The translations under genes were made by a program, and so were the position numbers. From Oscillospiraceae bacterium (lineage in GTDB: Bacteria; Bacillota; Clostridia; Oscillospirales; CAG-272), in NCBI GenBank assembly GCA_015064525.1, contig SVSC01000007.1, forward strand, positions 1 through 35,760: a stretch of 35,760 bases of DNA, written 5' to 3'. Below are positions 3,446-16,175 of the stretch, one piece after another. Each line of letters starts with the position of its first letter. The stretch's first letter is position 1. The notes below the pieces were generated by a model, which was not told where the DNA came from, searched no databases, and saw only the letters and a list, made by a program, of their open reading frames with translations.

Positions 3446-5269
3446 TTACTGAAATTGCGAGAGATACAGGGTGCTGTAGAAGCCGCCCTTTGCCATGAGA
3501 GCATCGTGGTTTCCTTGCTCGGTGATTTTTCCGTTTTGAATCACCAGAATCAGGTCGGCGCCCTGAATTGTGGAGAGGCGGTGGGCGATCACGAAGCAGG
3601 TACGACCCCGCATCAATTCGTCCATTGCTTCGCGGATTTTGATCTCGGTGCGGGAGTCCACGTTGGAGGTGGCTTCGTCCAGGATCAGCATGGGGGCGTT
3701 GGAGAGGAAGGCGCGGGCAATGGTGATGAGCTGTCGCTGCCCCTTGGAAATGTTCACGCCGTCGTCGGTGATCACCGTGTCGTAGCCTTGCGGGAGACTT
3801 TCGATATAGGAGTCGATTCTTGCCGCGCGGGCGGCGGCGCGCACCTCGTCGGGGGTGGCGTTTTCTCTGCCGTAAACGATGTTTTCGTAAACGGTTCCGC
3901 GGAACAGCCAGGTTTCCTGCAGCACCATGGCAAAGGCGCGACGCAGATCCTCGCGACGGCAGGAGGTGATCTCCTTGCCGTCGATGAGGATTTTACCCTC
4001 GTCGGCATCGTAGAAGCGCATGAGCAGATTGATCACGGTGGTTTTTCCCGCGCCCGTGGGGCCAACAATGGCAATGGTTTTGCCTTCCTCGGCGGTTACG
4101 GACACCTCGTGAAGAATCCGTTTTTCGGGCGTGTAGCCAAAGGAGACGTTCTCAAAGTCAACTTTTCCGCGCACCGAATGCAGGGGGAGGGGATCGGGGA
4201 TGTCGGGGGGTTCGGGCGCTTCGTCGATCACGCGGAAAACGCGCTCAGCCGCTGAAAATGCCGATTGAAATTCATGAAGGATGTTGGCGAACTCGTTGAT
4301 GGGACCCGCAAACTTTCTGGAATACTGCACGAACTGCGCCACGCCGCCCAGCGTGATGAAGAACAGCGCTCCCTCGGCAAATCTGCCGTTCTGCGAGTAC
4401 ATATAAAGGATGCCGCCGAACACCGTGACCAGTGAGATGGAAAGATTGTTGATGAAATTCACCGAGGGACCGAGGGCGGCGCCGTGGTATTCGGCGCGAT
4501 AGTACGCCTCCATCGACTCCTGGTTTCTTTGCGCGAAGCGACGGCAGATCTCTTCCTCACGCCCGTAAGCCGCAATGGTTCTGCTGCCCGAAAGCATTTC
4601 CTCCGCAAAGCCGTTCAGCTCACCGATCCTTCGGGAACGCTCCCGAAAGAGCGGACGTACCTTTTTGGAGCGGTAGCGGGTAAAAAGAATTGAGGCGGGA
4701 ACGGTGATGCAAAAGATCAGGATCATGGGCTTGGAAATTTTCCACATGAAGAAAAGGGAGCCAACCACCGTGTAAAGGCTGGTCATCACCTGCACCAGAT
4801 CGTGGGAAAGAGAGCTGTTCACCGTGTCGATGTCATAGGAAATGCGGCTGATCAGATCGCCCGCGGGGGTGGTGTCGAAATAGGTGACGGGCAGGGTGTT
4901 GAGCTTTTCAAAGAGCTGACGCCGCATGGTGTAAACAATTCGCTGACTCAGATGGATCATCAGAACCGCCAAGCCATAGGAGAGAATGGCGGAAACCACG
5001 TAGCAGATCAGCATTTTCCAAACGTTTTCCCAAACGGTGGAAAGCTGCACGCCCCCCTCTGCCGCAATGGCGTCGATGGCTTCTCCCGAATACATGGGGC
5101 CCATCAGCGCAAGCTGGTTGGAGAGAAGCGTGAGGGCGAGCGCCGCCAGAAAAAGGGGCGCGTGGCGAAGCACGTAGCCGGAGAGACGGCGAAAGACAGC
5201 GCCCGCCGTTTTGCGGTCTAACTTCTGATAAAGCCGCTCCTTTCCGGGAATCGGCTTGTTGCTTGGCAT
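3446..5269 (-). CDS. ABC exporter subunit with the catalytic ATPase site
   Basis: A 607-residue half-transporter: six-helix exporter membrane domain (about 35-330), then a nucleotide-binding domain (about 368-600). Seen: Walker A GPTGAGKTT (403-411), Q-loop LQETWLF (Q451), signature ISKGQ (507-511), Walker B LILDEATS with catalytic Glu532, and switch His563. It has canonical Walker B and switch residues but a non-canonical signature. The partner upstream shows the opposite pattern, so the two form a heterodimeric exporter of the BmrCD/TM287-288 kind, probably moving drugs, lipids or peptides out of the cell. The start at 5269 lies four bases after the partner's stop; an upstream frame extension would overlap that gene. 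The ribosome site is weak (TAAAGGT), fitting translational coupling. Substrate unknown; MarR control suggests a toxic compound. Confidence 0.85.
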   Translation of the reverse strand: MPSNKPIPGKERLYQKLDRKTAGAVFRRLSGYVLRHAPLFLAALALTLLSNQLALMGPMYSGEAIDAIAAEGGVQLSTVWENVWKMLICYVVSAILSYGLAVLMIHLSQRIVYTMRRQLFEKLNTLPVTYFDTTPAGDLISRISYDIDTVNSSLSHDLVQVMTSLYTVVGSLFFMWKISKPMILIFCITVPASILFTRYRSKKVRPLFRERSRRIGELNGFAEEMLSGSRTIAAYGREEEICRRFAQRNQESMEAYYRAEYHGAALGPSVNFINNLSISLVTVFGGILYMYSQNGRFAEGALFFITLGGVAQFVQYSRKFAGPINEFANILHEFQSAFSAAERVFRVIDEAPEPPDIPDPLPLHSVRGKVDFENVSFGYTPEKRILHEVSVTAEEGKTIAIVGPTGAGKTTVINLLMRFYDADEGKILIDGKEITSCRREDLRRAFAMVLQETWLFRGTVYENIVYGRENATPDEVRAAARAARIDSYIESLPQGYDTVITDDGVNISKGQRQLITIARAFLSNAPMLILDEATSNVDSRTEIKIREAMDELMRGRTCFVIAHRLSTIQGADLILVIQNGKITEQGNHDALMAKGGFYSTLYLSQFQ

Positions 5270-5273
5270 ACCT

Positions 5274-6995
5274 TTATTCAAGGAAAGCACCTCCCATCTG
5301 TGAATCGCTGATCTCCCGATAGGTGGGGCAGGACGCCAAAAGCTCCTCATGGGTGCCTCTGCCGATCACGCGCCCCTCCTCCAGAACGAGGATCAGATCG
5401 CAATCCTTCACCGAGCTGACCCTCTGCGCCACGGTGATCACCGTGGTGCTGCGGAGATTTTCCCGTAGGGCAAGGCGAAGGTTGGCGTCGGTTTTGTAGT
5501 CCAGCGCCGAGGAGCTGTCGTCCAGCACCAGAATCGAGGGGTTTGCCGCCAGCGCGCGGGCAATGAGCAGGCGTTGCTTTTGTCCGCCCGAAAGATTACT
5601 GCCCTTTTGGGCGAGGGGGTGGGCGTAGCCCTCTGTGAAGCCTCTGATAAAGTCGTCGGCTTGCGCCAGCTCGGCAGCGCGTCGGATCTCCTCGGAGGTG
5701 AGCGATCTGCCGAAGCGGATGTTTTCCTCAACCGTGTCGGCATAGAGAAAATCGTTTTGCAGAACCACACCGAACAGCTCGGTCAGCTCCTTGTGAGGGT
5801 AGGTGCGAACATCCCGCCCGTGGATGCGGATTCTGCCCTCGGTGGCATCATAGAAGCGCATGAGAAGCTTGATCAGCGTGGTTTTCCCGGCACCGGTGGA
5901 GCCAATGATCCCCAAGCGCTCGCCCTGCCGCAGAGAGAAAGAAACATCCTGCAGATGGCGGTGACCACCGGTGTAGGAAAAGCTGACGTTCTCAAACTCC
6001 ACCTGCGGCGCGTTGGGATGAGGAATGCTCTCAAGAGGGATTTCCACGGGGTCCTCGGGGGCGTTCAGCACCTGCGCGATCCGCTCCGAGGAGGCGGCGC
6101 ACTTGGTGTACATTACGAACATACGGGAAACCGACATCATTGCCATGGAAATCAGGTGGAAATATTGCATGAAGGCGATTACCGTTTCGGGATCCGAGCG
6201 ATGCCCCACCACTCTTTGGGCGCTGAGCGCCACCACGGCGGTGATGCCGCAGTTCATTAAAAGATTCATCACGGGGTTCACCACCCCCATCACGGTTCCC
6301 GCCACACGCTCGTCGTGGGAAAGGGTGCGGTTCACCCGATCGTAGCGGCGGTTTTCGTAATCGTTTTTGGAGAGCGCCTTGATCACGCGGATGCCTTGGG
6401 CGTTTTCCCGCACCACGCGGATCATGCTGTCCACCGACTCCTGCACCCGAACGTAAAGGGGAACGCCTCGGCGGGAGATCAGATAAACGGTGGCGAAGAT
6501 CAGGGGCAGAATGGCGATCATTACCAGAGAGAGGTAGGCATCCATCACCAGCGTGATGGCAATGCCGCCCACCAGCAGAATGGGCGCGCGGATGCCCAGT
6601 CGCTGGATCATGTTCACGAACTGATGCACGTGGTAGGTGTCGGTGGTGATGCGGGACTCCAGCGAGGGAAGGGTGAAGGCGTCGGTCTGGGCGGCGGAAA
6701 GCCCCAGCGTGCGGGAAAAAAGATCCATGCGGAGGCGCTGGGCGAAGTCCCGCGCAACTCCCGCCGCCATGCGGTTGGCAACCACGTTCAGCACCATGGC
6801 AACGGCGGAGAACACGATCATTGCGGCGCCCCACCAAAGAATTCCCGAAAGCGCGCCTGCGGCAACCACGTTCTTCAGTATATGACTTAAAATGTAGGGC
6901 AAGAGCAGCTCCGAGAGGGTTGCGGTCACCTTCACGCAGAGCCCCAGCGCCATTCTCAGCCGATAGGGGAGAAGATAAGAAAAAACGGTTTTCAT
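5274..6995 (-). CDS. ABC exporter subunit with the degenerate ATPase site
   Basis: A 573-residue half-transporter with six membrane helices (about 12-300) and a nucleotide-binding domain (330-565). Walker A is GSTGAGKTT (365-373) and the signature is a perfect LSGGQ (468-472). However Walker B reads LVLDDSS, with Asp493 where the catalytic Glu belongs, and the switch His is Gln524 (VAQRVSS). This site therefore pairs degenerate Walker B/switch residues with the partner's ISKGQ, while this subunit's good LSGGQ completes the partner's active site. That complementary pattern is the hallmark of asymmetric heterodimeric exporters. The start codon overlaps the stop of the MarR gene as ATGA, and GGAAGGGG lies upstream. 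Second gene of a MarR-ABC-ABC operon. Confidence 0.87.
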   Translation of the reverse strand: MKTVFSYLLPYRLRMALGLCVKVTATLSELLLPYILSHILKNVVAAGALSGILWWGAAMIVFSAVAMVLNVVANRMAAGVARDFAQRLRMDLFSRTLGLSAAQTDAFTLPSLESRITTDTYHVHQFVNMIQRLGIRAPILLVGGIAITLVMDAYLSLVMIAILPLIFATVYLISRRGVPLYVRVQESVDSMIRVVRENAQGIRVIKALSKNDYENRRYDRVNRTLSHDERVAGTVMGVVNPVMNLLMNCGITAVVALSAQRVVGHRSDPETVIAFMQYFHLISMAMMSVSRMFVMYTKCAASSERIAQVLNAPEDPVEIPLESIPHPNAPQVEFENVSFSYTGGHRHLQDVSFSLRQGERLGIIGSTGAGKTTLIKLLMRFYDATEGRIRIHGRDVRTYPHKELTELFGVVLQNDFLYADTVEENIRFGRSLTSEEIRRAAELAQADDFIRGFTEGYAHPLAQKGSNLSGGQKQRLLIARALAANPSILVLDDSSSALDYKTDANLRLALRENLRSTTVITVAQRVSSVKDCDLILVLEEGRVIGRGTHEELLASCPTYREISDSQMGGAFLE

Positions 6996-7435
6996 TGAGG
7001 GTCCGCCCCTTCCTGACCTGTCAGAATCCGCGCGCGGCGCGTGATACGGTTGAGAACCGAAAGAAAGATCTCCAGCTCACGGGCGGTGCAGTCCACGGTG
7101 ATCCCCTCGTTCCAGGTCTTGGCGATCTCACGGATTTTCGGATACAGCTCCAGCATGGCGTTGGTTGGGTAGATTTGCGTTACCCGTTTGTCGGAAGCGC
7201 TTGGAACTCTGGTGATCAGCCCCAGCGCCTCCAGCTGATCCAGGCTTCTTGCCACCGTGCTTTTGTTCAGGCAAAGGCGGCGGGCAATCTGATCCTGGGA
7301 AAGCCCCGGGGTGGCGCAGATCACAAAAACAAAGCTGTGGTGCTTTGCCTTCAGCCCCTCGTTGGGAAGCTGCTCGGCGCGGTAGAGCGCCATGCAACGG
7401 CTGACGGTGTTCAGATCTTTCATAATAGATGGCAT
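6992..7435 (-). CDS. MarR family transcriptional regulator
   Basis: A 147-residue winged-helix repressor. The core is 'GLSQDQIARRLCLNKSTVARSLDQLE' (split: helix two then recognition helix with NKSTVARS) followed by the wing 'RVPSASDKRV', the usual MarR DxR wing pattern. N- and C-terminal helices would form the dimer interface. MarR proteins typically repress their own operon until a small molecule binds. Here the promoter and a 31-bp palindrome lie directly upstream, and the two exporter genes follow with overlap or four-base spacing, so it very probably controls export of its own ligand. GGGAGGA lies five bases before the ATG at 7435. An internal Met four residues later is a less likely start. 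Confidence 0.88.
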   Translation of the reverse strand: MPSIMKDLNTVSRCMALYRAEQLPNEGLKAKHHSFVFVICATPGLSQDQIARRLCLNKSTVARSLDQLEALGLITRVPSASDKRVTQIYPTNAMLELYPKIREIAKTWNEGITVDCTARELEIFLSVLNRITRRARILTGQEGADPQ

Positions 7436-7615: not shown

Positions 7616-7644
7616 TTGACAGCAGGATTGGTTTGTGTTATAAT
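7616..7644 (+). promoter_or_regulatory. Consensus promoter P1 upstream of the glycogen operon
   Basis: TTGACA (7616-7621), 17-bp spacer, TATAAT (7639-7644), exact consensus on the plus strand. It would give a leader of about 290 nt before the first glycogen gene, or drive a short RNA. The stretch 7645-7860 has no supported gene. It contains an A/T hairpin at 7823-7832 with 7837-7846 (10-bp perfect arms, 4-nt loop) and ACCGAT...ATCGGT followed by five T at 7645-7699. Confidence 0.7.
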
Positions 7645-7859
7645 ACCGATGGTCGCTTTGTTTTTTGATTTGTTTTCACAAAAAACAGGATCGGTTTTTG
7701 GAAGATTTAACATTGCAATTTTCTCTGCTTCTGATTCGGCCGAGCGATCGGTCGTTTCTTTTTTTTATGAAAAAGCGCCAAACGGTGTCCTCCTCCCCCT
7801 TTGGTTTGTTGGTTTTGCTGTAATTTTTGTTCATCCGAACAAAAATACGGCGTTGCGTA

Positions 7860-7887
7860 TTGATTTCTTTGTAATATATGGTATAAT
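7860..7887 (+). promoter_or_regulatory. Promoter P2 of the glycogen operon
   Basis: TTGATT (7860-7865), 16-bp spacer, TATAAT (7882-7887), 54 bp before the ATG at 7942. GGGGGGAG provides the ribosome site. Confidence 0.65.
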
Positions 7888-7941
7888 ATAAGGGAAATAT
7901 ATATAGAATTGTAAAAGCGGTCGGCTGAAAGGGGGGAGATC

Positions 7942-9810
7942 ATGTCGGAATTGTTGCCACGGAGGGATGCGCTGGCGGCGTATCATTTCCATCAGGGAAC
8001 CAACAGCCATGCGTATGCGTATCTTGGCGCCCACCTTGAGGAGGGCAGCGTGGTGTTCCGCGTGTGGGCTCCCAATGCCGAGGCAGTTTTCGTTTGCGGC
8101 GATTTCAACGGATGGGCTCCCACGCGCTACCCTATGAGGAGGGTTAGCACGGCGGGAATCTACGAATGCAGGATTGCCGCCGATCAGATCCCCATCGGAT
8201 CGCTGTATAAGTTTTATTTTCTTCGGGACGGTCGCGGCTTCTATAAGGCGGATCCCTTTGGCTTTTCTATGGGATGCCCCCCCGAAACTGCATCGGTTTT
8301 TTACGTGGATGACGATTATCCGTGGAAGGACGCGGGCTGGCTTCGATACCGTGCGGAGCGCTTCACACGGGAGGCGGTGGCGCGACAGCCCATCAATATC
8401 TACGAAATGCACCTCGGCAGCTGGATGCGAGCCGACGGCGGCGAGCCACTCAGCTATCCCGAAATTGCCCGTCAGGCGGCGCCCTATCTCAAGCAGATGG
8501 GCTATACCCACATTCAGCTTCTCCCCATTGGGGAATTTTCCTCGGAGGATTCGCTGGGCTACGGTGTTTGCGGCTACTACGCTCCCTCCGCCCGCTACGG
8601 CACGCCTCGCGATCTGATGGCGCTTGTGGATCTGTTCCACGAGGCGGGCATCGGTGTGATTTTGGATTGGGTGCCCACCCATTTTCCAAGGGATGAGCAT
8701 GGGCTGCGGGAATTCGACGGCGCTCCTCTCTATGAGCAAGCCCATGAGGGCAGATGGGAGGGGGCGGACGGCAGTCTTCGGTTCGATCTTTCGCGGGAGG
8801 AGGTTCGGAGCTTCCTCGTTTCCAACGCGGTCTATTGGATCAGCCGCTTCCACGTGGACGGCTTGCGGATCTCGGGAATTGCCGAGCTGATGCGGGAGGG
8901 CGGAGGCAATCCCCCCGCGCAAAGACGGGCGGCGGCGGAATTCTTCCGCGCCTTGAACGGCACCCTTGCCAAGGAGTATCCCGATGTTTTCACGCTGGCG
9001 GATGCCTCGGAGGATCCCATCAACGTCACCGATTTTTCGGACGGCGGCTTGGGCTTTACCCTTCGCCAGAATACCCAATGGACGAGAGACACGCTGTTCT
9101 ACGCTTCCATGGATCCCATTTGGCGGAAGCATCACCACGGTCTGTTGAATTATCCCATCACCTACGCCTTTTCTCAGCGCTATCTGCTGTCCATCTCCCG
9201 CGAATCGGTTTGGGAGCGGCCCCTCTGCTCTCAGCTGTTCGGAGATAAAACGATGCAGGAGGCGGGGGTGCGGCTGTTGCTTCTGTATCAGATCACCCAT
9301 CCTGGGAAAAAGTCGCTCTTTATGGGGAGCGAGTGGGGAATGCGGGAATGCCGAGACCACCGGATGGGGCTGCCGTGGGAGACTCTCTCGGCTGATCTTC
9401 AATACTACACCGCCTGCCTGAACCGCTTCTATTTGCGGGAGTCGGCTCTGTGGCAGGGGGAGGAGGCATACGGCAGGAGCTTTGTGTGGATCGACCCCGA
9501 CAACGGGGAGCAAAGCATTCTGTCCTACCGTCGAAGAGATGAAAACGGAAACGAGCTGATCGTGATCCTGAATTTTACGCCCGTTCGCAGAGACGATTTT
9601 TTGCTGGCGGTGCCCGAGGCGAGGCGCTACCGCGAGATTTTTAACAGCGACAGCGTGGAATTCGGCGGCTCGGGGGCGGTGAATTTCGGGGAGTATCCCG
9701 CGGAGCCCTGCCCAACGAGAGAAGGGCAAAGCGCCATTCGTATTACCGTTCCCCCCATGGGTGGGGCGGTGCTTCAGGCGATTCCGTGCGGCTTGCGGCA
9801 AATGCCCTGA
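7942..9810 (+). CDS. glgB: GlgB-like protein, probable catalytically dead branching enzyme
   Basis: A 622-residue protein with the full architecture of 1,4-alpha-glucan branching enzymes: N-terminal CBM48-like domain (VFRVWAPNAEAVFVCGDFNG, about 35-130), GH13 barrel and C-terminal beta domain. Framework motifs are intact: LDWVPTHFPRDEHGL, HVDGLR, GLGF, HPGKKSLFMGSEWG. The three catalytic carboxylates of active GlgB are not. The nucleophile motif DGLRVD reads DGLRIS (Ser311). The acid/base motif AEES reads ADAS (Asp354-Ala355). SHDE reads SRES (Arg420-Glu421). It therefore probably cannot make alpha-1,6 branches and may bind glycogen or scaffold the other enzymes. The gene is full length without frameshift and leads the operon glgB-C-D-A-P, 63 bp before glgC. 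An active GlgB would be expected elsewhere in the genome. The symbol reflects homology, not proven activity. Confidence 0.85.
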   Translation: MSELLPRRDALAAYHFHQGTNSHAYAYLGAHLEEGSVVFRVWAPNAEAVFVCGDFNGWAPTRYPMRRVSTAGIYECRIAADQIPIGSLYKFYFLRDGRGFYKADPFGFSMGCPPETASVFYVDDDYPWKDAGWLRYRAERFTREAVARQPINIYEMHLGSWMRADGGEPLSYPEIARQAAPYLKQMGYTHIQLLPIGEFSSEDSLGYGVCGYYAPSARYGTPRDLMALVDLFHEAGIGVILDWVPTHFPRDEHGLREFDGAPLYEQAHEGRWEGADGSLRFDLSREEVRSFLVSNAVYWISRFHVDGLRISGIAELMREGGGNPPAQRRAAAEFFRALNGTLAKEYPDVFTLADASEDPINVTDFSDGGLGFTLRQNTQWTRDTLFYASMDPIWRKHHHGLLNYPITYAFSQRYLLSISRESVWERPLCSQLFGDKTMQEAGVRLLLLYQITHPGKKSLFMGSEWGMRECRDHRMGLPWETLSADLQYYTACLNRFYLRESALWQGEEAYGRSFVWIDPDNGEQSILSYRRRDENGNELIVILNFTPVRRDDFLLAVPEARRYREIFNSDSVEFGGSGAVNFGEYPAEPCPTREGQSAIRITVPPMGGAVLQAIPCGLRQMP

Positions 9811-9873
9811 TCGCGCCGACCAACAAAATACGTTTATAAAATTTTGAAATATACTCGGAGGTTTTGAAACGCT

Positions 9874-11058
9874 ATGCTTAAGAAAAAAGAATGCGTTGTA
9901 ATGCTTCTTGCAGGCGGGCAGGGAAGCAGACTGTACGCGCTGACCAAAAAAACCGCAAAACCCTCTGTCCCCTTCGGCGGTAAGTACCGCATCATCGACT
10001 TTCCCCTTTCCAACTGCATCAATTCGGGTCTGGATACCGTTGGCGTGCTGACCCAGTACCAGCCCCTGGTGCTGAACGACTATATCGGCAACGGGCTTCC
10101 TTGGGATCTGGATCGCACCTTTGGCGGCGTGAAGATTCTGCCCCCCTATCAGGGCTATTCGGGCGCCGATTGGTACAAGGGAACCGCCAACGCCATCTGG
10201 CAGAATATGGAATTTATCAATCGCTACGAGGCTGAATACGTGCTGATTCTGTCGGGCGACCATATTTACAAAATGGACTACGCCAAAATGCTGAAGGCGC
10301 ACAAGAAAACGGGTGCCGATTGCACCATTGCAGTGATCGACGTTCCCATTGAGGAGGCGAGCCGCTTCGGTATTATGAGCACCAACGAGGATGGCTCGAT
10401 CTATAAATTCTCCGAGAAGCCCAAGAATCCCGATTCCACCAAGGCGTCGATGGGAATCTATATTTTCACCAAGTCCAAGCTGGAAAGCTATCTGCGGGCG
10501 GACGCAGCCGATCCCAATTCCTCCAACGATTTCGGAAAGAACATCATTCCCGCCATGCTTGCCGCGGGCGAGAGGATGATGGCTTATTCCTTTGAGGGCT
10601 ACTGGAAGGACGTTGGAACCATCGCGTCTCTCTGGGAGGCGAACATGGATATTCTGGGGGATCCCCCCGTGTTCAGCCTGCATGACGAGGCTTGGCGGAT
10701 CTACAGCCGCCAGGAGGCTGCGGCGCCTCAGTATATTTCCGCCGATGCGATTGTGAAGAACAGCTCCATGACCGCGGGCTGCGAGATCGAGGGCACCGTG
10801 ATCAACAGTGTGCTGGGAAGCGGCGTGAAGGTGGAGAAGGGCGCTGTGGTTGAGGACAGCGTTCTGTTCAGCGACGTGACCGTGAAGGCGGGCGCCACCG
10901 TGCGCTATTCCATTCTGGATTCCAACGTGACGGTTGGAGCGAACGCCACCGTGGGCGAGGCAAAGGGCAATGGTGTGGAGATCGCCGTGATCGGCGCCGA
11001 TTGCGTGGTTGCCGAAGGCGCTACCGTGCCCGCGGGTGCCATGATCTCGGAAGACTGA
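9874..11058 (+). CDS. glgC: Glucose-1-phosphate adenylyltransferase, catalytic subunit
   Basis: A 394-residue enzyme that makes ADP-glucose from glucose-1-phosphate and ATP, the committed step of bacterial glycogen synthesis. Seen: nucleotide motif [12 protein letters not shown] (13-24), [19 protein letters not shown], catalytic [16 protein letters not shown], and a C-terminal left-handed beta-helix with hexapeptide-type repeats (about 285-394). All key motifs are intact, in contrast to GlgD next door. GGAGG lies 13 bases before the ATG. Eighteen bases separate it from glgD; in Firmicutes GlgC and GlgD form a heterotetramer in which GlgD raises GlgC activity. Confidence 0.93.
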
Positions 11059-11076: not shown

Positions 11077-12210
11077 ATGAACGTTGCAGGCTTGATTTTT
11101 TCAAACATTCACGACAGAGGAATTCCCGAAATGACCCGTAAGCGCACCATGGCAAGCATTCCCTTCGGATGCCGTTACCGTCTGATCGATTTTCCCCTTT
11201 CCAACATGGTCAACGCCGACATCAATACCGTTGGCGTGGTAACGCATTACAACTATCAATCTCTGCTGGATCACATTGGAACCGGCAAGGACTGGGATCT
11301 TGCCCGTCGCTCGGGCGGTATCAAGATCCTCCCCCCTTATATCGCCGCTTATGAAAACAACGTGGCGGGGAAGCTCTATTCCAACCGTCTGGAGGCGCTG
11401 ATCGGCGCGGAGAATTTCATAAACCGTTGTAAGGCGGATTACTTTGTTCTTTCGGATTGCGACGTGCTGATGAACATTGATCTGAAGGACGTGATCGACA
11501 CCCACGTGCAGTCGGGCGCCCACATCACCATGGTCACCAAGCGGGTTAATGCCGCCGAAAGAGCCAATGAATACGACGTTGACGCGGTGGAGATTGCGGA
11601 CGACGGACGGATCCTTTCGGTCTCCCGTCAGCTGCCCGAGAGCGGGGAGTGCGATATCAATACAAACATTCTGGTGCTGAGCCGCGGCGAGATCCTCGCC
11701 ATTATTTCGGATTCTCTTCGCAAGGGCTACACCAGCTTTGCCACCGACGTGCTGGCGAAGAACGTGAAGGAAAAGAATTTCCGCGCTTACCGTTATGAGG
11801 GCTACTATTCCCATATCGGCACGCTGGAATCCTACTTTGCTTCCTCCATGAAGCTGCTCACCGAGGAAGCGCGGCACGGTCTGTTCGGGATCAAGAACCG
11901 TCAGATCTACACCAAGATCCGCAACAGCGCGCCCACGCAGTACGGCGCGAACGCCGTTGTGAAGAACAGCCTCATTGCCGATGGCTGCGTGGTGGAGGGT
12001 ACCGTTGAAAACTCCATTATCTTCCGCGGTGTGAAGGTGGGGAAGGGGTGCGTGGTCCGCAACTCAATCCTCCTGCAGGATACCTCCATTGGAGAGAACG
12101 TGCAGCTCAATTGTGTAATCACAGATAAAAACGCAATGGTGAAGGATGGCAGAATGCTCTCGGGTCATGAATCCATGCCCTTCTTCATCGGAAAAGGAAT
12201 GATCGTATGA
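11077..12210 (+). CDS. glgD: GlgD, non-catalytic subunit of ADP-glucose synthase
   Basis: A 377-residue homologue of GlgC that has lost the nucleotide-binding motif: the GGxGxRL position reads SNIHDRGIPEM, and GDH reads DCD ('VLSDCDVLMN'). The rest follows GlgC (ASIPFGCRYRLIDFPLSN, SGGIKILPPY, C-terminal beta-helix). GlgD is known in Firmicutes as an inactive partner that modulates GlgC; its presence is one of the better clues to the phylum. AGGAGG lies nine bases before the ATG. The stop overlaps the start of glgA (ATGA). Confidence 0.93.
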   Translation: MNVAGLIFSNIHDRGIPEMTRKRTMASIPFGCRYRLIDFPLSNMVNADINTVGVVTHYNYQSLLDHIGTGKDWDLARRSGGIKILPPYIAAYENNVAGKLYSNRLEALIGAENFINRCKADYFVLSDCDVLMNIDLKDVIDTHVQSGAHITMVTKRVNAAERANEYDVDAVEIADDGRILSVSRQLPESGECDINTNILVLSRGEILAIISDSLRKGYTSFATDVLAKNVKEKNFRAYRYEGYYSHIGTLESYFASSMKLLTEEARHGLFGIKNRQIYTKIRNSAPTQYGANAVVKNSLIADGCVVEGTVENSIIFRGVKVGKGCVVRNSILLQDTSIGENVQLNCVITDKNAMVKDGRMLSGHESMPFFIGKGMIV

Positions 12211-13673
12211 AAAAGAAAACAACCGCTACCGTTGAAAACGCCCAAAAGCTTTTGTTCGTTGGCTCGGAGGCTCTGCCCTTTGCCGCCACGGGAGGACTTG
12301 GCGACGTGATGGGCTCTCTGCCCGCTGCCCTTGCCGCTTCCGGTCAGGTGGACGTTCGGGTGGTGATGCCCCTCTACGGCGCGATTTCGGCAGAGTGGAG
12401 GAAAAAAATGAAGGAGGAGTGGGTTGGAACCGTCCGCCTCTCCTGGCGCGTGCAGTATTGCGGCATCTACAGCCTGCAAAAGGACGGCGTGACCTACTAC
12501 TTTATCGACAACGAATACTACTACAACCGCAAGGCACTCTACGGCCATTACGATGACGGCGAGCGCTATGCCTTCTTCTGTATGGCGGTGATGGAGCTGA
12601 TGGAGAAGGTTGGCTTTTACCCCGACGTTCTCCATGCCCACGATTGGCAGGCGGCGCTTTCCGTTATCTATCTCAACTGTCTCTATCGGAGCAAGGCGGG
12701 CTATGGCAATATCAAAACCGTTTTCACCATTCACAATATCGAATATCAGGGACAGTACGATTTTTCGATCCTCGGGGACGTATTTTCCTTGGGTGAGAAC
12801 GAGCATGCTTTGCTGGAGTACGGCGGCTGCATCAACCTGATGAAGGCGGCGATTGAGTGCGCCGATCGGGTTAGCACCGTGAGCCCCAGATATGCGGAGG
12901 AGATCCGCACCGAGGAATATTCCCATAAGCTTTGCCACTGCCTCAACCGCAACGCCGAAAAGCTGCTGGGAATTCTCAACGGCATCGACTACGTTTACTA
13001 TAACCCCGCCAAGGATAAGAGCATTGCCCACACCTTCTCCCAGAGGAAAATGGAGGGGAAGGCGCTGGATAAGCTGGAAATGCAGAGAGAGGTGGGGCTT
13101 CCCGAAAGAGCGGATGCTCCCATGCTTTCCATCATTTCCCGCCTGGCGTCCCATAAGGGCTTGGATATCATTGCGGAGTGCATTGATTCCATTGTTGCCG
13201 AGAACGACGTGCAGCTGATCGTTTTGGGAATGGGAGAGAAGCGCTACGAGCAGTTCTTTACCGAGCTGGAGGCGCGCTACCCCGAAAAGGTGCGGGCGCT
13301 GATCACCTACGATCGCGACCTCTCCAAGCGGATCTATGCCGCTACCGATATTTTCCTGATGCCCTCCAAATCCGAGCCCTGCGGTCTGTCGCAGATGATC
13401 GCCTCCCGCTACGGTGCCATTCCCGTGGTGCGGGAAACGGGTGGACTTTTCGATTCCATCAAGCCCGTGTGGATGGATGGCAAGGAGCTGAGAGGCAACG
13501 GCTTCACCTTTGCTAACTACAGTGCCGAGGAGCTTCGCGAGCGCACCGAGGCGGCAATCCGCCTTTGGAGCGATGAGCCCATGCGGAAAAAGCTGGTCAC
13601 CAAGATTATGAGAACCGACTTCTCCTGGGCGGCGTCCGCGGAGAAGTATCTGGAGATGTACAGGGCGCTGTAA
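12207..13673 (+). CDS. glgA: Glycogen synthase (ADP-glucose, GT5)
   Basis: A 488-residue GT-B glycosyltransferase that elongates alpha-1,4-glucan from ADP-glucose. Seen: N-terminal 'SEALPFAATGGLGDVMGSLP', HAHDWQAAL, the donor-site Arg/Lys pair in ISRLASHKGLD, and SEPCGLSQ with Glu390 followed by RETGGL. One deviation: the KxGGL motif, whose Lys contacts ADP-glucose in the E. coli enzyme, reads ATGGL (Ala27 in the Lys position). Everything else supports an active enzyme, so the change may be a lineage feature. The start overlaps the glgD stop by four bases, implying coupled translation. Confidence 0.92.
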   Translation: MKKKTTATVENAQKLLFVGSEALPFAATGGLGDVMGSLPAALAASGQVDVRVVMPLYGAISAEWRKKMKEEWVGTVRLSWRVQYCGIYSLQKDGVTYYFIDNEYYYNRKALYGHYDDGERYAFFCMAVMELMEKVGFYPDVLHAHDWQAALSVIYLNCLYRSKAGYGNIKTVFTIHNIEYQGQYDFSILGDVFSLGENEHALLEYGGCINLMKAAIECADRVSTVSPRYAEEIRTEEYSHKLCHCLNRNAEKLLGILNGIDYVYYNPAKDKSIAHTFSQRKMEGKALDKLEMQREVGLPERADAPMLSIISRLASHKGLDIIAECIDSIVAENDVQLIVLGMGEKRYEQFFTELEARYPEKVRALITYDRDLSKRIYAATDIFLMPSKSEPCGLSQMIASRYGAIPVVRETGGLFDSIKPVWMDGKELRGNGFTFANYSAEELRERTEAAIRLWSDEPMRKKLVTKIMRTDFSWAASAEKYLEMYRAL

Positions 13674-13751
13674 CACGCTCCATTTCCATTTCGCATTTTG
13701 CATTTATTCCAACAGAAAGGTTTCCCAAAGGGGAAAGAACAGAACGAAACA

Positions 13752-16175
13752 ATGAATTATCAACCCAACAGCGCAGAAGTGAAGGAACAGCTCGAGGGGG
13801 TCCTGCAGCGTCATTTCGGATGCACCGCCGCAGAGGCCTCGAGAGAACAGATGTATAAAGCCGCCGCCATCACGGTGCGGAATCTTTTGAGCGATAAGCG
13901 ATCCAAGTATAAAAAGAAGGTGAACGGGGCAGGCGCAAAAAGAGTGTATTATATGTGCATGGAGTTCCTGCTGGGTCGGTCACTCAAAACCAATCTGTGC
14001 AATTTAGGACTTGCCAAGGCATACGGCGAGGCGCTCGGTCAGCTGGGCTTTTCGCTGGAGGATCTGTATGAATGTGAGCCCGATGCGGGGCTGGGCAACG
14101 GCGGTCTTGGCCGTCTTGCCGCCTGCTTTGTGGATTCTCTCGCCTCTCTTGATTATCCCGCAACGGGCTTCTCCCTGTGCTACGAATACGGTCTTTTCAA
14201 GCAAATGATCGTGGACGGTATGCAGGTGGAGCTTCCCGACATCTGGCTTCCCGGCGGTGAGGTTTGGCTCACCCCCCGCACCGACCGCATCTATAAGGTC
14301 AAATTCGGCGGACGCGTGGTGGAAAACTGGAAGGAGGGGCATTGCGAGATCAGCTATGAGGACGCCGAGGAGTTTGAGGCGGTACCCTACGATATGATGA
14401 TTTCGGGCGCCAACAGCACCGCTGTCAGCCAGCTCCGCCTCTGGAGAGCCAGAAATATCAACAACTTCAACATGGGTCTGTTCACGCAAGGACAGTACAC
14501 CCGTGCGCTGGAGGAAAGCAACAACGCCGAGATCATCACCAAGGTGCTGTATCCCTCCGATAATCACACGGAAGGAAAGCTTCTGCGTCTCACCCAGCAG
14601 TATTTCCTGGTGTCTGCCTCGGTGCAAAGCATCATCCGCGACCACATGGCGGTTTACGGAACCATCGAAAACCTGCCCGATAAGGTTGCGATTCACATCA
14701 ACGATACCCATCCCGCTCTTTGCATCCCCGAATTGATGCGGATTCTCATCGACGAGTATTTCCTCTCCTGGGAGCAGGCGTGGAGCATGGTGACGAGAAC
14801 CGTTTCCTACACCAACCACACCGTAATGCCCGAGGCGCTGGAAACCTGGAGCGAGGATCTTTTCCGCCTCCGTCTGCCTCGAATCTACACCATCGTAAAG
14901 GAGATCAACGAGCGCTTCTGCCGCGACGCGTGGAACACCTTCACAGGCAACTGGAACACCATTTCCAAGCTGAGCATCGTGGGCTACGGTCAGGTTCGCA
15001 TGGCAAACCTTTCGGTGATCGGCTCCCACTCGATCAACGGCGTGTCCGCTCTCCACTCCCAAATTCTGAAGGATTCCACCTTCAAGGATTTCTACAAGAT
15101 GTACCCCGAGCGCTTCGATAACGTTACCAACGGCGTGGCGCACCGCCGCTGGCTCTGCTATTCCAACCCCAAGCTGGCGGAGCTGATCTCCGATTGCATT
15201 GGCGACGGCTACCGTCACCGCCCCGAGGAGCTTTCCGAGCTGGCAAAGTTTGCCGACGACAAAACGGTGCTGGAGCGTCTGCGCGCCATCAAGCATGAGA
15301 ATAAAATCGTGTTTGCCGACCTGCTCTACCGCAAAACGGGACAGAAGATCGACACGCACTCGGTCTACGACGTGCAGATCAAGCGTCTCCATGAATATAA
15401 GAGACAGCTGCTCAACGCGCTGAACGTGATCGGCTTGTATCTGGATCTGAAGGAGAATCCCGATCTGGAGCTTCAGCCGCAAACCTTTATTTTCGGAGCC
15501 AAGGCGGCGCCCGGCTACGCGATGGCGAAGCGGATCATTAAGCTGCTTTGCATGATCAGCCGCGATATCGAGCAGAATCCCCGTATTGCCGAAAAGCTCC
15601 ATCTGGTGTTCCTTGAGAACTACTGCGTGAGCATGGCGGAGGCGTTGATCCCCTCTGCCGAGATCAGCGAGCAGATCTCGCTGGCGGGCAAGGAGGCAAG
15701 CGGCACCGGTTGCATGAAGATGATGATTAACGGTGCGCTCACCATTGGAACGCTGGACGGCGCCAACGTGGAAATGCAGGCGGCGGCAGGCAAGGAGAAT
15801 ATGTTCATCTTCGGTCTTACCGCCGAGGAGGTGGAGCAACTTTGGCTGGCAGGCTACCGCTCCTCTGCCTACTACACCTCCAATGAGAAGCTGGCGAAAA
15901 TTGTTAATTATCTCACGGTTGGCTTTGCGGGCGAATCCTTTGCGGATATCGCGTCCTACCTGCTCAACGGTCACGGCATTGCCGATCCCTATATGTGCCT
16001 GGCAGACTTTGAGTCCTACCGTCTCACCCATGAGCGGATGATTCGGGCGTATCAGGACAAGGAAAAGTGGAACAGAATGTCGCTGCTCAACATTGCCGCG
16101 GCGGGACACTTCGCCGCCGATCGCTCCATTGAGGAGTACGCGCAGCGGATCTGGAGACTCAAAAAGGTAAAGTGA
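13752..16175 (+). CDS. glgP: Glycogen/starch/alpha-glucan phosphorylase (GT35)
   Basis: An 807-residue PLP-dependent phosphorylase that releases glucose-1-phosphate from glycogen ends, so the operon holds both synthesis and breakdown. Seen: GRSLKTNLCNLGL, DAGLGNGGLGRLAACF, HINDTHPAL, NHTVMPEALE, VTNGVAHRRWL, and the PLP-lysine region EASGTGCMKMMINGAL with Lys656. The residue two before the lysine is Cys where Asn is usual (GTGNMK). The start at 13752 gives the family-typical N-terminus; an upstream TTG-initiated extension is unlikely. AAAGGGGAAAG precedes it at a rather long distance of about 15 bases. A 78-bp gap follows glgA. A strong terminator ends the operon 20 bp downstream. Confidence 0.93.
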   Translation: MNYQPNSAEVKEQLEGVLQRHFGCTAAEASREQMYKAAAITVRNLLSDKRSKYKKKVNGAGAKRVYYMCMEFLLGRSLKTNLCNLGLAKAYGEALGQLGFSLEDLYECEPDAGLGNGGLGRLAACFVDSLASLDYPATGFSLCYEYGLFKQMIVDGMQVELPDIWLPGGEVWLTPRTDRIYKVKFGGRVVENWKEGHCEISYEDAEEFEAVPYDMMISGANSTAVSQLRLWRARNINNFNMGLFTQGQYTRALEESNNAEIITKVLYPSDNHTEGKLLRLTQQYFLVSASVQSIIRDHMAVYGTIENLPDKVAIHINDTHPALCIPELMRILIDEYFLSWEQAWSMVTRTVSYTNHTVMPEALETWSEDLFRLRLPRIYTIVKEINERFCRDAWNTFTGNWNTISKLSIVGYGQVRMANLSVIGSHSINGVSALHSQILKDSTFKDFYKMYPERFDNVTNGVAHRRWLCYSNPKLAELISDCIGDGYRHRPEELSELAKFADDKTVLERLRAIKHENKIVFADLLYRKTGQKIDTHSVYDVQIKRLHEYKRQLLNALNVIGLYLDLKENPDLELQPQTFIFGAKAAPGYAMAKRIIKLLCMISRDIEQNPRIAEKLHLVFLENYCVSMAEALIPSAEISEQISLAGKEASGTGCMKMMINGALTIGTLDGANVEMQAAAGKENMFIFGLTAEEVEQLWLAGYRSSAYYTSNEKLAKIVNYLTVGFAGESFADIASYLLNGHGIADPYMCLADFESYRLTHERMIRAYQDKEKWNRMSLLNIAAAGHFAADRSIEEYAQRIWRLKKVK

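Follow-up and report, generated by a model that had tools for sequence, protein, structure and literature searches.

A predicted catalytically dead GlgB at the head of a glycogen operon, and its recurrence in genomes with a second branching enzyme

The first gene of the glg operon in the DNA stretch analysed here (35,760 nucleotides, hereafter the window) encodes a full-length homologue of the branching enzyme GlgB in which all three catalytic acids are replaced. The same genome carries a second branching enzyme with an intact triad, called BE8. Across related genomes, broken operonic GlgBs are associated with BE8, have arisen more than once, and evolve in a non-neutral manner. The joint reading of these results, to which we give somewhat better than even weight, is that the gain of BE8 freed the operonic GlgB of catalysis, and that the dead GlgB would persist as a folded glucan-binding or scaffold part that is often lost later.

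The window glgB is an open reading frame with an ATG start and no internal stop. Its product showed family-level similarity to TIGR01515 (511.8 bits, cut-off 463.95) and scored narrowly below the cut-off of 577 against PRK12313 (573.1), and its top solved relative was the bacterial branching enzyme 3k1d (E 1.3e-122). Pfam matched CBM_48, Alpha-amylase and Alpha-amylase_C, corresponding to a CBM48 module, a (beta/alpha)8 barrel and a C-terminal beta domain. The gene and its motifs, the latter placed by alignment, are located as follows.

7942-9810, + strand: glgB, operonic GH13_9-type branching-enzyme homologue, predicted catalytically dead (622 aa)
8023-8259, + strand: CBM48 domain of GlgB (aa 28-106)
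8665-8685, + strand: region I, DWVPTHF (live form DWVPAHF), mostly retained
8857-8880, + strand: region II, DGLRISGI, with Ser for the nucleophile Asp at aa 311 (8872-8874)
8992-9015, + strand: region III, TLADASED, with Asp for the acid/base Glu at aa 354 (9001-9003) and the adjacent Glu changed to Ala
9196-9207, + strand: region IV, SRES, with His changed to Arg and the transition-state Asp to Glu (aa 420-421)

Compared with solved and related enzymes, the window GlgB thus reads DGLRIS for DGLRVD, LADAS for IAEES and SRES for SHDE, and its catalytic-acid columns are S-D-E versus D-E-D in live enzymes; DWVPxHF, HPGKK.LFMG and the framework are retained. The initial annotation had called all three catalytic positions changed, which the alignment bears out with one refinement: the second Glu-to-Ala change of ADAS is not diagnostic, since an intact-triad relative (L003, with the same protein in family member G084) reads RVD, AEAS and SHDE, and the diagnostic change is the first Glu to Asp. 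The intact frame leading glgBCDAP and the retained CBM48-like domain, barrel framework and HPGKK motif, also part of that annotation, were recovered by Pfam and alignment. The loss also goes beyond the three acids. In 157 live relatives, 140 positions reach an invariance of 95% or more; 39 of them are altered in the window GlgB, and in its N-terminal part (reference positions 1-125) all 16 live-invariant sites are retained. The protein was classed as a homologue and not as an active branching enzyme because its triad reads S-D-E; judged from sequence, it would be devoid of branching activity. Sequencing or assembly error was rejected as a source of these changes, given that several separate motifs are altered within a full-length open frame and that other genomes are altered differently. 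The possibility that the true catalytic residues lie elsewhere, raised initially as a potential refutation, is contradicted by an alignment that is collinear with solved enzymes around all regions. An AlphaFold model built from a two-row alignment had a mean pLDDT of 37.6, too low to inform on the fold.

The gene order in the window is glgB-glgC-glgD-glgA-glgP, with glgB first. The downstream genes and the upstream signals are listed below; promoter-like and terminator-like sites are consensus matches, and their number is only slightly above the shuffled expectation.

7616-7644, + strand: promoter-like site TTGACA-17-TATAAT 5' of glgB, matching 12/12 with TG preceding the second hexamer (consensus match only)
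7860-7887, + strand: second promoter-like site 5' of glgB, 10/12 (consensus match only)
7929-7938, + strand: Shine-Dalgarno-like purine-rich stretch ahead of the glgB ATG (from sequence)
9874-11058, + strand: glgC, ADP-glucose pyrophosphorylase
11077-12210, + strand: glgD, non-catalytic GlgC homologue with signature motifs lost
12207-13673, + strand: glgA, glycogen synthase
13698-16175, + strand: glgP, glycogen phosphorylase

The promoter-like and Shine-Dalgarno-like signals suggest that the dead GlgB may still be made, and the glgB-glgC gap has no listed terminator-like site on the + strand. A terminator-like stem with a T run (7737-7754) separates the strong promoter-like site from glgB and is followed by the second promoter-like site, so that attenuation of the operon at this place is possible. 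Further upstream, positions 3446-7435 hold a divergent MarR-type regulator and two ABC exporter half-transporters. On the minus strand, a 950-aa open frame (7831-10683) runs antisense to glgB and is probably a by-product of codon composition. The GlgD of the window lacks the AGGQGSRL and SGDH motifs, both of which are retained in the adjoining GlgC, and scored 357.5 bits against TIGR02092; the parallel drawn initially between GlgB and GlgD as inactive homologues is therefore fair.

The source genome, a metagenome-assembled genome (MAG; 81.55% complete, 149 contigs), contains one further GlgB-like gene, the BE8 gene on contig C17 (G000:C17). Its closest solved relatives were 4bzy (692 bits), which we take to be the human enzyme, and the rice enzyme 3amk (636 bits), with bacterial GlgBs at 203 bits or less. 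The triad is intact (RFD, AED and SHD), and the gene adjoins a polymerase-like gene outside the glg operon. As to the search for a second, canonical glgB proposed in the initial annotation, an intact second branching enzyme exists and accompanies GlgB loss; it is of a different, GH13_8-like type. D-E-D was intact in all 36 BE8 loci read, which came from 36 of the 44 BE8-carrying family genomes (the G025 piece ends ahead of the motifs, and seven others were outside the count). The BE8 tree was discordant with genus: seven full BE8s from the genus of the window were scattered among those of other genera, forcing at least five changes (starred branches), and a single clade of the seven was rejected (p-AU 1.4e-64). 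Since the BE8s of the genus do not form one clade, BE8 was gained repeatedly, presumably by horizontal transfer. G034 (L108) has, near its full BE8, another BE8 copy that is partial and contains an in-frame stop; the full copy was itself reported with one stop.

To follow the fate of GlgB, 35 genomes of the genus and 196 of the family, taken from a larger group (five common to both sets), and 245 genomes of the order were searched. An operon-type GlgB was found in 33 of the 35 genus genomes and is catalytically broken in six of these 33 (the window, G020, G025, G011, G006 and G019), each broken differently. BE8 occurs in nine of the 35, comprising five of the six genomes with a broken GlgB together with G002, G015, G017 and G034, whose triads are intact. 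The exception, G011, has a dead GlgB and no detected BE8; completeness of this assembly is 87%, and BE8 is present in G006, the sister of G011 by GlgC, GlgD, GlgA and GlgP. Over genus and family, the operon GlgB was broken in 14 of 25 genomes with BE8 (11 intact) versus one of the 155 readable GlgBs whose genomes lack BE8, a status that depends on incomplete MAGs; the other 154 keep D-E-D, four of them being second copies within a genome. Fisher's test, computed on 14/11 versus 1/152 prior to the addition of two more live GlgBs, gave 2.9e-13. To arrive at these 180 readable triads, two rows truncated at contig ends were taken from 178, and G153, G046, G090 and G194 were added. The rows left out were G138 and G202, in which contig ends cut the catalytic region, and G163, G091 and G211, fragments without the motifs. 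The very diverged G153 and G046 were found only through their position ahead of glgC, an approach applied in BE8-carrying genomes only, and remnants split by stops into pieces of less than 90 aa were counted as lost.

The association was also compared within genera because the sequences are related. In 12 genera with members both with and without BE8, the share of dead or lost GlgB was higher in BE8 carriers in ten, equal (none) in two and lower in none (p 0.002). A tree-based pair test confined to the genus of the window did not reach significance with its four pairs (median p 0.5). In the order, BE8 was detected at E 1e-120 or better in 36 of the 245 genomes, of which 34 lie in other families. 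A GlgB scoring above the BE8 cross-match was present in 15 of the 34, in every case directly before glgC, and seven of the 15 triads were broken, across four families; all of these genomes carry BE8, the BE8-free comparison being that of the family. In the other 19, nothing besides BE8 was found by a search that would miss very diverged copies.

The losses are apparently many and independent, as far as can be judged from the sequences. The triad columns vary among dead lineages (SDE, DAE, CDD, PET, SDD, RCR, GKT, LEE, IER, DGD and CGD), and dead GlgBs occur in eight family genera, five of which (g1, g7, g19, g41 and g53) also contain live ones. A single ancient dead clade is therefore unsupported. 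The clade sharing the substitutions of the window, for which the initial annotation had suggested looking, was not recovered; no other lineage has this set, and many lineages appear to have broken the site on their own. We give no exact number of origins, because origins cannot be counted reliably on a GlgB tree with long branches.

Separately, G020 (L089) and G025 (L090) have glgC and glgD proteins that are 98.5-99.5% identical, with glgB and everything upstream either unalignable or at about 55% DNA identity; between their BE8 parts, identity is 78%. Either the contig is chimeric or recombination took place recently where glgB meets glgC. G020 has two rpoB genes (G020:C107 and G020:C52), one matching that of G022 in score and size, and its assembly is likely contaminated.

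Variation in the triad columns also bears on the idea that the changed active site acquired a new activity, which we regard as very improbable. The fold and substrate-binding scaffold are kept, and some cleft residues remain in the window GlgB (Y207 and H247), as such a gain would lead one to expect. However, with triad columns differing in nearly every dead lineage there is no common new site, and of these aromatic residues of the cleft, W205 survives in one of the 15 dead GlgBs and W277 in none.

More weight attaches to decay, in which GlgB, made superfluous by BE8, would be degenerating in the operon without function and the open frames would be a snapshot; we consider this rather unlikely, though a real contender. 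In 18 of the 44 BE8-carrying family genomes, glgC is present with no recognisable glgB ahead of it (one further genome has no glgC in its assembly). This is as decay would predict, and it also indicates that the dead GlgB is dispensable. Shortened dead copies point the same way (395 aa in G006, 506 aa in G019 and 479 aa in the order member G396), as do long GlgB tips in BE8 carriers even where the triad is intact (0.91 in G002 and 0.59 in G015, versus a median of 0.31). In-frame stops were reported in the intact-triad GlgBs of G022 (L121), G135 (L045) and G093 (L341), showing that broken frames occur among intact copies or their assemblies.

Against decay, the frames are open in all 22 dead genes (15 from the family and seven from the order), although ascertainment favours open frames, above all for G153 and G046, which were found by theirs. 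In neutral simulations from a live relative, 0.2 substitutions per codon produced a mean of 4.3 stops, some 1 run in 300 staying free of them; at 0.4 substitutions per codon the mean was 7.8 stops and every run had at least one. On the window branch, omega = 1 was rejected (2dlnL 102). The branch time was fixed from glgC, glgD, glgA and glgP (2.0-3.4) because synonymous sites are saturated; free fits drove branch times to the bound, and with these borrowed times, on which the estimate depends, omega was 0.50-0.29 versus 0.07-0.08 elsewhere, a relaxation of about 4-7 fold. A dN/dS near one, which had been put forward initially as the mark of decay, is thus contradicted for this branch: the window glgB appears not to be in plain decay, yet constraint on it is clearly relaxed. 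For the dead pair G108-G041, both of which lack the nucleophile and probably descend from a common dead ancestor, omega was about 0.17 at the BE8-derived time of 6.1, versus 0.04 for BE8; the shorter time of 1.9 given by a short glgC piece would push it above 0.26, the value at t = 4. The dead pair G011-G006 gave about 0.49 at the time of its neighbours, which is closer to what decay would produce.

Which residues are kept was informative beyond the overall rate. Across the 140 invariant positions, site retention among 15 dead GlgBs had a variance of 17.5, versus a permuted mean of 3.1 and a maximum of 4.5 in 5000 permutations, meaning that the same structural sites are kept across genera. Invariant cells were kept at 219 of 240 in the N-terminal/CBM48 part and 1111 of 1815 in the barrel. 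The least-kept sites include W205, Q208, H247, Y266, W277, D312, M389, N393 and V435. W58 and K90, which we take by comparison with AMPK-type CBM48 to be glucan contacts, were kept in 14 and 13 of the 15, respectively. With sites classed as fragile or robust from nine dead proteins of other genera, the window GlgB had lost 21 of 27 fragile versus 5 of 54 robust sites (p 8.5e-10), and the test was significant in all 15 dead GlgBs (largest p 3.4e-5). These patterns argue against decay and indicate, at the level of sequence comparison, that catalytic residues are lost and fold-determining residues are kept by selection. The window GlgB carries 54 changes at hydrophobic-only columns, of which 41 remain hydrophobic, versus about 50% for stop-free neutral change; the live G030 has 24 changes at such columns, all hydrophobic, and after this baseline the window remainder is 17 of 30, near neutral, as decay would allow. 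The maintained pseudoenzyme proposed in the initial annotation accordingly stands as regards catalytic death and non-neutral evolution, but its maintenance is under clearly relaxed constraint and the gene is lost in many BE8-carrying genomes.

Open frames could also result from polarity, if the frame of a first gene must stay translatable for expression of glgCDAP and selection acts against stops and not for the protein. The position of glgB, first in the window operon and directly before glgC in examined relatives, and the stop-free dead frames would suit this explanation. It is nonetheless improbable in our judgement, as particular residues are selectively kept across genera, omega is low in the G108-G041 pair, and operons without glgB exist in the 18 BE8-carrying genomes noted above; moreover, a promoter-like site can arise anywhere, making long-term dependence on the frame unnecessary.

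The joint reading, in which BE8 replaces GlgB in catalysis and the dead protein persists, would proceed in four steps. A horizontally moving, eukaryote-like GH13_8 enzyme would enter the genome and supply branching; we infer that BE8 came first because 11 BE8-carrying family genomes have a live GlgB and one dead GlgB lacks a detected BE8. Branching by the operonic GlgB would then be redundant and its active site free to change. The fold and the glucan-binding module would stay under relaxed but real selection for some time, with the protein presumably folded as a CBM48-barrel-C protein and most likely serving the Glg machinery as a scaffold or glucan-binding part that has no catalytic role, in the manner of plant isoamylase 2 (ISA2) or GlgD. 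Finally, the pseudoenzyme state would often be transient and end with gene loss. We put forward more tentatively a general form of this idea: whenever a mobile BE8 enters one of these gut-type bacteria, the native GlgB may be liable to become, through differing substitutions, a glucan-binding subunit devoid of catalysis, which would tune how the glycogen built by GlgA and BE8 is structured or nucleated. Such a subunit would be a convergent bacterial counterpart of ISA2.

Many apparently independent losses, close live relatives and a likely trigger open non-catalytic roles of the branching enzyme to direct study, and the steps from redundancy through pseudoenzyme to loss can be watched in this order. 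Annotation of a glgB within an operon is no guarantee that its product branches glycogen, and where it does not, glycogen structure predicted from the genomes of gut Clostridia would be mistaken. Earlier work records glgB duplication in bacteria (PMC6339891) and several glgB homologues per genome in gut Clostridia (PMC10395257); no paper on an inactive or pseudoenzyme bacterial GlgB was found in the open-access literature. Pseudoenzymes of storage-glucan metabolism are known from ISA2 and from GlgC/GlgD, and the new element here is that they are convergent and linked to a replacing enzyme.

Compared with known systems, the window protein is like GlgB (GH13_9) in sequence family, CBM48-barrel-C order and position at the head of glgBCDAP, but all three of its catalytic acids are replaced, as is much of the cleft. 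GH13_8 is described as comprising eukaryotic GBEs and GH13_9 prokaryotic ones (PMC6339891); the C17 enzyme resembles the eukaryote-type GH13_8 and keeps the triad but sits outside the operon. GlgD, described as a regulatory subunit of GlgC (PMC10395257), is likewise an inactive homologue of a pathway enzyme within the same operon as the dead GlgB. However, GlgD proteins form a separate family of long standing, for which a dedicated model exists (TIGR02092), whereas dead GlgBs are scattered within live GlgB diversity. Plant ISA2 (GH13_11), as described in PMC12510319, is a non-catalytic GH13 paralogue that diverges faster than its active relatives, is kept, and alters the physical form of the glucan, and it shares with the dead GlgBs the condition of an inactive GH13 paralogue in alpha-glucan metabolism alongside an active relative. 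ISA2 differs in being a plant debranching-enzyme homologue with one ancient origin and experimentally shown complexes, whereas the dead GlgBs are branching-enzyme homologues with many recent origins, analysed here by sequence.
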